Shown piece by piece: positions 54,243-58,330 of a stretch of DNA of 64,000 nt. The DNA is from Brevundimonas sp. M20 (GTDB lineage Bacteria > Pseudomonadota > Alphaproteobacteria > Caulobacterales > Caulobacteraceae), in NCBI RefSeq assembly GCF_006547065.1, contig NZ_CP041243.1:2929001-2993000 (forward strand), read 5' to 3'. Made by a program: the position numbers and the translations under genes. The first letter of the stretch is position 1. The number at the start of each line of letters is the position of its first letter. The notes beneath the pieces were generated by a model that worked only from the letters and a program-made list of their open reading frames with translations, was not told where the DNA came from and searched no databases.

Positions 54243-54296
54243 GATATGGCGGTTTGGGCTCGCCGATGCAAGCGTGGGCTTGCTAGACAGGACGGC

Positions 54297-55229
54297 ATGC
54301 CCCTTTCGATCCAGAACACGTTCGCAGGCAATCCGCTCGACCGGGCGGGGGACAGACGAAACGACCCGGCCTGGCTGGCCGAGCAGGAGGCCAATCCGGA
54401 AGCACTGGCGCTGGTGATGTGGCAGGGCAGGCCGCTGGTCGAGGACCATGCGGACGGGCCGCGCCTGCAATGGCTGTCGCTGGGCCACGCCCGCGACGTC
54501 GTGCCGGACCGGGAAGTCTTTCTGGGCCTGTGGAAGGAGGCTCCGGTCTTCGCCATTGAAGTCGAAGGACCGGTCGATCCGGCGGCGGGACCGCTGCAGG
54601 GGCTGGGCGCCTTCATGGACATGCGCGAGGCGGCGGGCGTGCTGTCCGCCGCGGACGCCGCCATGGCGGGACTGGCCAAGAGCCTGTTCGACTGGCGCGC
54701 GCGACATGGCTTCTGCGCCGCCTGCGGCCACGCCAGCGACACGGCTTCGGGCGGCTGGAAGCGCATCTGCCCGGCCTGCAAGACCGAGCATTTCCCGCGC
54801 GTGGACCCGGTCACCATCATGCTGGTCATTCATAAAGGCGGGACCGAAGACCGCTGCCTGCTGGGCCGTCAGGCGGCCTGGCCTGAGGGCCGGATGTCCG
54901 CGCTGGCGGGCTTCCTTGAACCGGGCGAGAGCATCGAGGAAGGCTGCGCCCGCGAGATCGCGGAAGAGGCGGGCCTGACGGCGACGAAGGTTCGCTACCA
55001 CTCCAGCCAGCCCTGGCCCTTCCCGTCCCAGCTGATGATCGGCCTGTTCGCCGAGGTGGACAGCGACGACGCCCGCCCGGACCAGACGGAGCTGGAGGCG
55101 GTGGCGTGGCTGACGCGGGCGGAAGCCGCCGAGGTGCTGGCGGGGACGCACCCGACCATCAAGGCGCCGCCGCGAGTCGCCATCGCCCGCACGCTGATTC
55201 AGGCGTGGGTGGATGGGTTTGATGTCTGA
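54297..55229 (+). CDS. nudC: NAD+ diphosphatase (NADH pyrophosphatase), Nudix family
   Basis: The 310-residue protein has an N-terminal domain, the zinc ribbon CAACGHAS and CPACKTEHFPR, the Nudix box in two visible parts (GFLEPGESIEEG, AREIAEEAGL) and the NudC signature SSQPWPFPSQLMIG. It splits NAD(H) to NMN(H) and AMP and, in related enzymes, removes NAD caps from RNA. The start at 54297 (MPLSIQNTF) was chosen because the longer frame to 54246 runs into the 4.5S RNA promoter region. Confidence 0.94.
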   Translation: MPLSIQNTFAGNPLDRAGDRRNDPAWLAEQEANPEALALVMWQGRPLVEDHADGPRLQWLSLGHARDVVPDREVFLGLWKEAPVFAIEVEGPVDPAAGPLQGLGAFMDMREAAGVLSAADAAMAGLAKSLFDWRARHGFCAACGHASDTASGGWKRICPACKTEHFPRVDPVTIMLVIHKGGTEDRCLLGRQAAWPEGRMSALAGFLEPGESIEEGCAREIAEEAGLTATKVRYHSSQPWPFPSQLMIGLFAEVDSDDARPDQTELEAVAWLTRAEAAEVLAGTHPTIKAPPRVAIARTLIQAWVDGFDV

Positions 55230-55709
55230 GTGAGGGATTAGGGATTTGGGATTAGGGATTAGGCTCGATCAACTTCAAGAAAGCTGATTTCGCGCCATGA
55301 TTGTTCGCCTTGGTTTGGGAGCGAACAAAGATGGCGCAATCGCATCGAGAGCTTGCGGTCTGGCAAAAGGGGCTCGACCTCGCATGTCTGGTTTACGAAC
55401 TGACCCGCCAGATGCCGAAAGAAGAGATGTATCGGATGTCCGGACAAATCGTCCGATGCTCAGCGTCCATCCCTGCCAATCTGGCAGAGGGCAACGCCCG
55501 GAGCACACGACGCGATTACGCGCATTTCGTCAGCATCGCGCGAGGGTCAGCAGCCGAACTCGAGACGTTCCTGCTGATCATCAAGCGCCTCGGCCTCGCA
55601 CCCGCCGGCACTGTCGATGATCTTCTTTCGCGGACCGAGGAAGTTGGGCGAATGCTGACCGGTCTCAGAACCAAGCTCGCACCTAATCCCTAATCCCTAA
55701 TCCCTTACC
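55230..55709. mobile_element. Heptamer-armed element carrying a four-helix-bundle gene
   Basis: Left arm 55230-55265 has four GGGATTA-type units (one is GGGATTT). Right arm 55681-55709, read inverted, has three perfect GGGATTA units. The only cargo is the S23-type gene at 55331-55693, and the right arm encodes its last residues and stop. The left arm begins one base after the nudC stop; the right arm supplies the kdsB stop codon. The same arms without cargo are at 58221-58330. Mobility is inferred from the terminal-inverted-repeat form and the filled/empty pair. Confidence 0.6.
55331..55693 (+). CDS. Four-helix-bundle protein, S23/IVP (Avd-like) family
   Basis: The 120-residue protein matches the family first seen in 23S rRNA intervening sequences: LAVWQKGLDLACLVYELT, MSGQIVRCSASIPANLAEG, NARSTRRDYAHFVSIARGS, AELETFLLIIKRLG. 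The four amphipathic helices are clear. Family members form pentamers, and Avd of diversity-generating retroelements is related. Their role outside that setting is unknown. The final PNP and stop are encoded by the heptamer repeat arm. The start is ATG 55331; an upstream frame to 55301 is not needed. Confidence 0.9.
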   Translation: MAQSHRELAVWQKGLDLACLVYELTRQMPKEEMYRMSGQIVRCSASIPANLAEGNARSTRRDYAHFVSIARGSAAELETFLLIIKRLGLAPAGTVDDLLSRTEEVGRMLTGLRTKLAPNP

Positions 55710-56428
55710 GCCTGTTCCCGCGCCGCCTCCAGATCCGCCGGATTGTCGACCGACAGGGGCGCCTCGTCGATGACGGCGGCCCAGATTTGCAGGCCCATTT
55801 CGAGCGCGCGGAGCTGTTCCAGCTTTTCGCGCTTCTCCAGCGGCGACGGCGGGGCGGCGCAGAATTTCAGCAGGGCCTCACGGCGGTAGCCGTACAGGCC
55901 GATATGCCGCCAAACGGGGGCGTCGCCGTACAGGGTCGAGCGGGTGAAATAGAGGGCGCGGCCATGGCGCTCGCCCTCGGACAGGGCCAGCACGGCCTTG
56001 ACCACATCGGGGTTGGAGCGGTCGGACAGATCGGCCTCCGGCGCCACCAGGGTCGCGATGTCGCACTCCGGCTGACCGTGCAGCAGGGCGGCGCAGGCGG
56101 TGGCGAGGCCGGGGTCGGCGAACGGCATGTCGCCTTGCAGATTGATCACCGCATCGAAGTCGCCGTCCGGGTCGATGGCCTCCAGCGCGGCGCGGATACG
56201 GTCCGAGCCCGACGGCAGGTCCGGATCGGTCAGGACGGCGACGCCGCCGATGGCCTCGATGGCGTCCACGATCTCCTGATCGCCCGCCGCCACGGCGACC
56301 TGAAGTCCCGACAGGGCGGCCTGTTCATAGGCCCGCACGATCATCGGCTTGCCCCCGATATCGGCCAGCGGCTTGTTGGGCAGACGGGTCGCCGCCATGC
56401 GAGCGGGAATCATTATCAGCGGATTCAT
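55697..56428 (-). CDS. kdsB: 3-deoxy-manno-octulosonate cytidylyltransferase
   Basis: The 243-residue protein activates KDO as CMP-KDO for lipopolysaccharide. It shows IMIPARMAATRLPNKPLADI, VLTDPDLPSGSDRI, VINLQGDMPFADP and HIGLYGYRREALLKF, all conserved in KdsB. The last codons (VRD and stop) are read from the heptamer repeat arm, so the repeat has replaced or set the natural end. KdsD at 5743 is in the same pathway. Confidence 0.95.
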   Translation of the reverse strand: MNPLIMIPARMAATRLPNKPLADIGGKPMIVRAYEQAALSGLQVAVAAGDQEIVDAIEAIGGVAVLTDPDLPSGSDRIRAALEAIDPDGDFDAVINLQGDMPFADPGLATACAALLHGQPECDIATLVAPEADLSDRSNPDVVKAVLALSEGERHGRALYFTRSTLYGDAPVWRHIGLYGYRREALLKFCAAPPSPLEKREKLEQLRALEMGLQIWAAVIDEAPLSVDNPADLEAAREQAVRD

Positions 56429-58220: not shown

Positions 58221-58325
58221 GGGAGGGATTAGGGACTAGGGATCAGGGATTAGGCTGACGGAGCCCGTCCCAAGCCGCCCGAGCGACCCTCCCCCCCTAA
58301 TCTCTGATCCCTAATCCCTAATCCC

Positions 58326-58330
<5 letters not shown>
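58221..58330. repeat. Heptamer-armed inverted-repeat element, GGGATTA type, no cargo
   Basis: Left arm 58221-58255 has units GGGATTA, GGGACTA, GGGATCA, GGGATTA. Right arm 58297-58330, inverted, has GGGATTA, GGGATTA, GGGATCA, GAGATTA. The arms differ at about two bases. A spacer of about 40 nt has no gene. The right arm includes the M17 peptidase stop codon (GG-TGA-GGGATTAG). It is the empty counterpart of 55230-55709. Confidence 0.75.

Follow-up and report, generated by a model that had tools for sequence, protein, structure and literature searches.

Inverted tandem arrays of a heptamer enclose the S23 gene of the window (the whole stretch of 64,000 nucleotides analysed here), as they do S23 genes across a wide range of bacteria, and we regard both this architecture and its generality as close to certain. 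Cargo-free arrays of the two heptamers tested are concentrated in genomes whose S23 gene has the matching unit. The analysis suggests that some of the heptamer repeats of bacteria stem from a system of gene and repeat that has so far been overlooked, and we think it probable that the S23 gene is a resident partner acting on dispersed hairpins of its own heptamer, in the manner of RAYT genes and their REPINs but with an unrelated protein.

The gene of the window (Table 1) matches PF05635 (23S_rRNA_IVP) at 119.1 bits, for a cut-off of 33.8, and TIGR02436 at 115 bits, for a cut-off of 24; both scores lie above the curated cut-offs, and with a predicted fold resembling 2gsc they bear out the S23-type four-helix bundle proposed in a sequence-only reading of the window. 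That reading had also placed inverted GGGATTA arms of four and three heptamers around the gene and had derived its last codons and stop from the arm, and both claims hold. On one strand the 3' arm encodes the C-terminal codons and stop of S23 (AAT CCC TAA), while its opposite strand provides the final codons and stop of the convergent reading frame, a double role that had gone unnoticed; the cassette sits between convergent genes, two protein ORFs. The positions given for arms, gene and hairpin stand, the outer bounds were a few bases too wide, and some of the units are imperfect. An alternative in-frame TTG start at 55301 appears in the list of open reading frames. GGGATTA occurs 10 times in the window, with 1.97 expected, and none of 100 shuffles reaches 10. 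The same cassette is present at the same site in named Brevundimonas contigs (L045, L047).

Table 1. Features of the window, and arm units at the S23 loci of the genome that holds it.
Feature	Position	Strand	Description
Whole heptamer-armed S23 cassette	55234..55704	.	471 bp
5' arm	55234..55261	+	four GGGATTA-type heptamers, one of them GGGATTT; read towards the gene
S23 / 23S rRNA-intervening-sequence-protein gene	55331..55693	+	120 aa, four-helix bundle; PF05635, TIGR02436, predicted fold
3' arm	55684..55704	-	three perfect GGGATTA heptamers
Left neighbour, putative nudC	54246..55229	+	query for the orthologous site
Right neighbour, putative kdsB	55697..56428	-	stop at 55697-55699, within the 3' arm
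Cargo-free hairpin, left arm	58225..58252	+	four GGGATTA-type units
Cargo-free hairpin, loop	58253..58297	.	45 bp, no visible similarity to the cassette interior (by eye)
Cargo-free hairpin, right arm	58298..58325	-	four units, some imperfect, one of them GAGATTA
Window locus			arm unit GGGATTA
L012			arm unit GGGTGTC/GGGTGTG
L010			arm unit GTGATTA/GTGGTTA
L013			arm unit GGGCGTA/GGAATTA; S23 gene frameshifted
L009			inverted but irregular repeats (by eye)

The genome that holds the window (G000; 3.3 Mb, a single contig) gave six matches in a search for the S23 family, at five loci. Clear inverted heptamer arrays flank four of the five, with a different unit at each. Three of the five reach an array score of at least 10; the two below it are L013, which is clear by eye, and L009, which is irregular.

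For the wider survey, 128 loci were reduced to 127 with a protein match, to 124 after deduplication and to 121 with both flanks, a set mostly from Pseudomonadota with nine loci on plasmids; the congeneric set comprises 112 loci (118 table rows minus six fragment rows). An array was called at a tandem score of at least 10 within 150 bp on either side of the gene, with periods from 4 to 16 open, and control stretches were displaced by 500 bp. Measured in this way, a tandem array lies beside S23 in 103 of the 121 wider loci versus 7 of 115 displaced controls, and in 97 of the 112 congeneric loci, with no array score at the remaining 18 and 15 loci, respectively. S23 as the cargo of a heptamer-armed cassette is thus widespread, and a general lack of arms around S23 genes of the genus, which had been named as grounds for abandoning the idea, is not what we find. 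In a Xanthomonadaceae-like family, where a query with XCC0516 finds S23 in 109 of 247 genomes, arrays score at 29 of 30 S23 loci. Of 61 relatives 24 carry the gene, as do 62 of the 398 genomes searched in the phylum and 68 of the 131 in the genus, and it is also present on 26 plasmids, 24 of which are cyanobacterial by name; a phage collection gave no tblastn match to the window S23 protein at E<=1e-3. Among the wider loci are MAGs of Chloroflexi (L057) and of Goldiibacteriota (L059, left side only), as well as Gemmatirosa (L135, period 8).

The period is 7 or 14 in 155 of the 169 scoring flanks and 8, 15 or 16 in the other 14; no flank has any other period between 4 and 16. At the 137 loci where both arms scored, the arms have a median of 4.4 units, the cassette has a median length of 452 bp (5-95% range 423-522), and in 50 cases the S23 reading frame ends within the 3' arm. 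Read towards the gene, the array strand is 68% purine and 10% C. AG is present in most repeats at 130 of the 170 loci with arrays; GGG, which the window unit contains, is present in at least 60% of the repeats at just 63 of these 170, which makes a G-quadruplex an improbable common denominator. The two wide inverted array pairs examined in Xanthomonadaceae-like genomes (L345, L346) enclose apparent host genes, identified by eye, so that arrays can bracket genes other than S23. By annotation, the S23 gene of an Anabaena sp. 90 plasmid (L128) has cas6 and cas4 on either side, within a type I-D CRISPR operon, and that of a Nostoc edaphicum plasmid (L130) lies between two ribonucleotide reductase genes.

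The two arms of a cassette match each other. At SW>=15, the left arm aligns with the reverse complement of the right arm in 81 of 121 own pairs, compared with 17 of 361 swapped partners, 7 of 121 pairs in direct orientation and 0 of 115 displaced controls. Among close relatives, the own pair of arms is the better match in 241 comparisons, the worse in 150 and tied in 32, so concerted change of the arms is visible but modest. Units elsewhere are mostly heptamers other than GGGATTA, and their similarity falls with protein distance (r=-0.47 over 99 loci, reached in 0 of 2000 permutations; r=-0.51 in a larger set of 186 loci). The 55 unit classes take 73 changes on the protein tree versus at least 149 in 100 shuffles, and the array period takes 3 changes versus at least 5 in shuffles, period 8 being confined to one clade of five loci (of the window's class, adjoining a period-7 group) and one distant locus. 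Even in a single site cluster of 28 loci the unit varies by species, in both arms (AGTGATT, AGTGAGT, AGTGGCG). Alignment columns 67, 63, 71, 55, 75, 16, 12, 15 and 7 rank high for association with the unit as candidate specificity positions; because the near-constant columns 11 and 8 also rank high, and the order is a bare ranking, these columns are a lead only. Since unit and protein are inherited together on one piece of DNA, recognition is not proved by their correlation by itself.

Solo arrays were counted in the 131 congeneric genomes after subtraction of hits inside cassettes. With the kinship of the genomes ignored, solo GGGATTA arrays are present in 9 of the 10 genomes whose S23 has GGGAT[TG]A arms (median 8 hits), in 16 of the 58 that have other S23 and in 5 of the 63 that lack S23 (matched versus other S23, p=8e-5); for AGTGGCG the corresponding figures, kinship likewise ignored, are 12 of 12 (median 17 hits), 31 of 56 and 26 of 63 (p=4e-6). 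Among the 247 Xanthomonadaceae-like genomes, again irrespective of kinship, GGGAATC arrays occur in 50 of the 65 that have a close relative of XCC0516, in 11 of the 44 whose relative is weaker and in 20 of the 138 that have none, the boundary between close and weaker (E about 2e-31) being of our choosing. For the 30 genomes with known arms, whose units were assigned by eye, the median number of GGGAATC hits is 59 with GGGAATC arms (15 genomes), 8 with GGGATTC (11) and 0 with GTGA[AT]TC (4), and GGGAATC-type arms differ from the remaining types at p=0.002. There are exceptions: G519, G480, G014 and G531 have 42, 23, 23 and 20 GGGATTA arrays despite having no matched S23, and G340 and G777 have 214 and 100 GGGAATC hits beside a GGGATTC-type S23. 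The cognate scattered arrays had not been seen in the sequence-only reading, and they carry most of the interest.

One such array pair lies in the window. It had been described, at 58221-58330, as a cargo-free counterpart of the cassette; the pair is real, at 58225-58325, but its loop does not resemble the cassette interior by eye, which makes it a dispersed hairpin of the GGGATTA repeat and not an emptied cassette, and rules out a filled/empty pair inside the window. The hairpin loops of G000 (the loop in Table 1, L001, L002, L003, L006 and L198) are all 44-54 bp long and mostly unalike, with no S23 remnant visible by eye; the loops of L001 and L198 have short stretches in common. In 400 kb sampled evenly from this genome, we read six period-7 sites, three AGGGATT, two GGGTGTG and one GGTGACT/GGTGATT, and five of the six thus bear units of the genome's own cassettes (AGGGATT, GGGTGTG); the shuffle control, with one shuffle per stretch, gave zero period-7 segments. 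Six period-9 segments also scored in the sample.

On conjugative Nostocales plasmids of about 97% identity, a first site is filled in L133 and L202 and empty in L203, L204 and L205, whose junctions were read. The insertion has broken up a 13-bp intergenic spacer and has GTAAT on both sides. Coverage like that of an empty site is seen at this position in H31, H33 and H35 (by coverage alone), Nostoc C052 (L206) has there a left array and a decayed S23, and a related cassette lies elsewhere on an Aulosira plasmid (L212; 82% over 416 bp, arm to arm). At a second plasmid site the cassette is present in L132 and L211 and absent from L207 and L208, L209 has a heptamer hairpin without S23, and L210 has other sequence. 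One genome holds two cassettes about 1.25 kb apart that resemble each other at 80% over 430 bp, a stretch delimited by the arms.

By flank similarity, the 112 congeneric loci form 18 site clusters, and because the clusters are single-linkage, the 28-locus cluster may merge neighbouring sites. The cassette is reversed in 43 same-cluster pairs from different species (L010, L011, L012 and their relatives), and both orientations within a cluster are as expected of recombination between inverted arms. In the wider set, 99 close pairs comprise 71 at the same site, 26 at different sites and 2 neighbours (L033/L042 and L102/L074), where a different site is one without a blastn match in about 1.3 kb of flank and the neighbours share only the stretch between them on one contig. 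All ten GGGAT[TG]A-type cassettes of the genus occupy one site, that of the window, which together with the 18 clusters indicates a long-term resident that seldom moves. At this site, the nudC-kdsB spacer, S23 is present in 5 of the 30 loci read (two of the 30 without the left neighbour), so the spacer is not always occupied in relatives; constant occupation had been named as counting against a mobile cassette. The presence of S23 there is scattered over the kdsB tree, with 5 changes, as in 239 of 300 shuffles. The nearest relative has in its spacer a 67-bp heptamer hairpin of another unit. Eight other spacers (L139, L141, L145, L148, L149, L153, L160, L161) contain, by eye, inverted nonamer arrays of the CACAACGAA / CACGAAGGA type and no S23, a second family of inverted tandem-array hairpins.

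Target-site duplication is not general: direct repeats of at least 5 bp were found in 5 of 134 loci, with 9.2 expected, although the array edges are fuzzy and small duplications could thus be missed. The short direct repeat at both ends that defines a DNA transposon or MITE is accordingly not a general feature of these 134 loci; one plasmid site has GTAAT on both sides. Because the cassettes are mostly stable in position, the term mobile cassette, which the sequence-only reading had offered, is only partly right: the armed S23 form is widespread and cyanobacterial plasmids provide the filled and empty sites of a clean insertion polymorphism, but no such polymorphism was found in this genus, where 18 clusters for 112 loci speak for an element that seldom moves.

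In the resident-partner reading, the S23 gene would make up one element with the inverted heptamer arrays on either side of it, and the resident gene would be paired with a population of cargo-free hairpins of the same heptamer. The four-helix bundle, which in a crystallised relative forms an assembly of five subunits, would recognise its own unit, presented as RNA, as single-stranded DNA or as a DNA hairpin, and this recognition would keep both arms alike and let hairpins of that unit spread and persist. Cutting and joining may be performed by S23 itself, by way of its near-invariant polar residues, or the hairpin may be handed to host replication or repair. It is to the action of S23 in trans on the scattered arrays that our qualified preference applies; we infer it as the probable case.

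The alternative that survives best, which we consider unlikely but worth keeping in view, is that the arms are nothing but the termini of an S23 element that moves now and then and takes them along, and that the scattered arrays are its decayed or internally deleted copies, or products of replication slippage and recombination, with no action of the protein on them. Linked inheritance would account for the correlation of unit and protein, the arrays of several genomes outlive or lack a matching gene, and the left array with a decayed S23 at the plasmid site of L206 would be a copy of the kind envisaged. It fits less well with the six hairpin loops of G000, in which the eye finds no S23 remnant, and with the finding that arrays are commoner with a matching S23 than with any S23.

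Somewhat less probable still is an element that works at the RNA level, in which the arms pair in the transcript and are cut or protected like an intervening sequence (IVS), or serve as a bidirectional terminator, while S23 binds the RNA stem and mobility is incidental. The same arrangement does exist in a 23S rRNA gene: in G276, of the same phylum, an S23 gene with heptamer-like arms is embedded in the 23S rRNA gene, in two identical rRNA copies (L120; Rfam). The S23-bearing 23S rRNA IVSs of Coxiella and Leptospira likewise combine an S23 ORF with inverted terminal arms in about 430 nt. In the portion of PMC4990558 drawn on here, the Coxiella IVS has two to three tandem GACAGAT heptamers before the S23 ORF, in a number varying between strains, and a 28-bp terminal stem, and is termed a selfish element; its excision by RNase III favours action at the RNA level, and the statement that Coxiella S23 is probably not made argues against it. 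Unlike an rRNA IVS, the window cassette and nearly all loci examined lie outside rRNA genes (Rfam was applied to L120 only), their arms consist of tandem heptamers of many units, and arrays that match them lie dispersed through the genome. The position of the window cassette between convergent genes, with an arm closing both reading frames, would suit a terminator, and the fold that S23 is predicted to share with Avd, a component of the DGR ribonucleoprotein, would suit RNA binding; plasmid S23 genes, often between co-directional genes (L132, L133, L136), are ill-suited to a terminator. The P6b stem of the Nostoc trnL group I intron, described in part of PMC4476775 as built on seven-nucleotide repeats, resembles S23 arms and may be linked to them.

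The S23 protein is under strong purifying selection (dN/dS 0.01 to 0.16 in 17 pairs), and W11, Q39, R42, S46, N50, A52, E53, G54, R57, S73 and E76 stay the same in 98% or more of 215 proteins. To our knowledge S23 has no nuclease motif, a point against the resident-partner reading. An S23 structure has been solved since 2006; the available part of PMC4990558 describes the function of S23 proteins as not known and XCC0516 as an assembly of five subunits. The predicted model of the window protein (pLDDT 96.4) has its best fold match in 2gsc (XCC0516, TM 0.93), then in 2rld, then in Avd and the DGR ribonucleoprotein (4dwl, 8ubb, 8ube, 8ub7). It is on this predicted Avd fold, at TM about 0.76, that one would base the idea of S23 working in trans with a cellular reverse transcriptase, as its Avd-like partner, a proposal we hold to be very improbable. 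Kinship with DGR Avd in sequence is weak (23.2 bits against profile NF033474, below the family cut-off of 80), G000, which is complete and has five S23 loci, gives zero RVT_1 matches, and of the relatives, 8 of the 24 that carry S23 and 9 of the 37 that lack it have RVT_1. S23 is accordingly not a DGR Avd, for which a score above that cut-off and a reverse transcriptase would be expected, and a reverse-transcriptase partner was rejected for its absence from G000 and the lack of clear association among the 61 relatives.

We give equally little credence to the idea that heptamers are abundant through polymerase slippage or a G-quadruplex function, both proposed for heptameric repeats in the sections of PMC4692102 used here, and that S23 merely tends to sit among them: the scarcity of GGG and the 7 of 115 displaced controls with arrays (this last being only a first test) speak against it, and slippage leaves unexplained both the inverted pairs of one unit that differ from the next S23 locus in the same genome and the period of 8 in one S23 clade. 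Least credible of all, for all the similarity of the genomic pattern to RAYT/REPIN, is that a Y1/HuH transposase moves the hairpins as ordinary REPINs while S23 is a passenger, since Y1_Tnp (PF01797) has zero matches in G000 and, among the relatives, occurs in 3 of the 24 that carry S23 and 2 of the 37 that lack it (5 of 61 overall); a Y1 transposase partner was rejected on this absence and for want of clear association.

The resident-partner reading takes its model from REPIN/RAYT systems. As described in parts of PMC3116915 and PMC8049555, these have a resident gene flanked by its own repeat, cognate repeat classes and dispersed inverted-repeat hairpins, with repeats more numerous in gene-bearing genomes and a gene that seldom moves. 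S23 genes are likewise flanked by their own repeat class, as the own and swapped arm pairs show, and dispersed cognate hairpins are commoner where the gene is present, with the exceptions given above and kinship ignored. Unlike a RAYT, the S23 protein has no HuH/Y1 domain and the cargo matches PF05635 only; unlike REPINs, its repeat is a tandem array of heptamers or octamers and not a palindrome; and S23 occurs on plasmids, where RAYTs have not been observed according to the consulted part of PMC8049555. Because the defining transposase is absent, the protein has been filed as S23 and the system has not been filed as RAYT/REPIN, though it would work like one.

Dispersed heptamers are themselves familiar. 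The GGGAATC repeats of Xanthomonas and GGGGA(C/T)T repeats of Nostoc are, in the portion of PMC4692102 cited, mostly of four units and mostly intergenic, with 70 to 75 convergent pairs; they are generally unassociated with mobile elements, and the heptamer excess of bacterial genomes is attributed there to polymerase slippage or quadruplexes. GGGAATC also makes up the arms of the nearest relatives of XCC0516 (L314-L316, imperfect arrays). A term search of the text of that paper found zero mention of S23, helix bundle or XCC0516. The TAACTGA repeats of Beggiatoaceae are similar dispersed intergenic heptamers, for which a repeat-binding protein has been suggested as a possible mobile element (PMC4679880, in part), and a term search of that text gave zero mention of S23. 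More broadly, no link between S23 and dispersed heptamers was found in the parts covered of PMC4692102, PMC4679880, PMC4476775, PMC10053308, PMC8049555, PMC8266576 and PMC3116915, nor in the open-access papers searched, the Coxiella paper (PMC4990558, in part) coming nearest; as this coverage is of open-access papers and not of preprints, an earlier description elsewhere is possible.

A more specific version of the resident-partner reading is attractive, and we advance it tentatively, as something that could well prove wrong: S23 would be a new class of repeat-mobilising protein with no known nuclease fold, a ring of four-helix bundles in which each subunit reads one unit of 7 nt (or 8 nt). 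Protein and heptamer would then evolve together, and the protein would disperse its own hairpins. The assignment of one unit to each subunit is a guess from unit length. If true, the ring would account for the heptamers of Xanthomonas, for some of those in cyanobacteria and for the rRNA intervening sequences that bear S23, all as a single system.

If the pairing of S23 with its repeat is real, S23 would gain a target and heptamer repeats would gain a protein, and the direct prediction is that each S23 prefers its own heptamer. The rRNA intervening sequences would then belong to a larger set of elements, and the RAYT/REPIN way of life would have a second, independent case.
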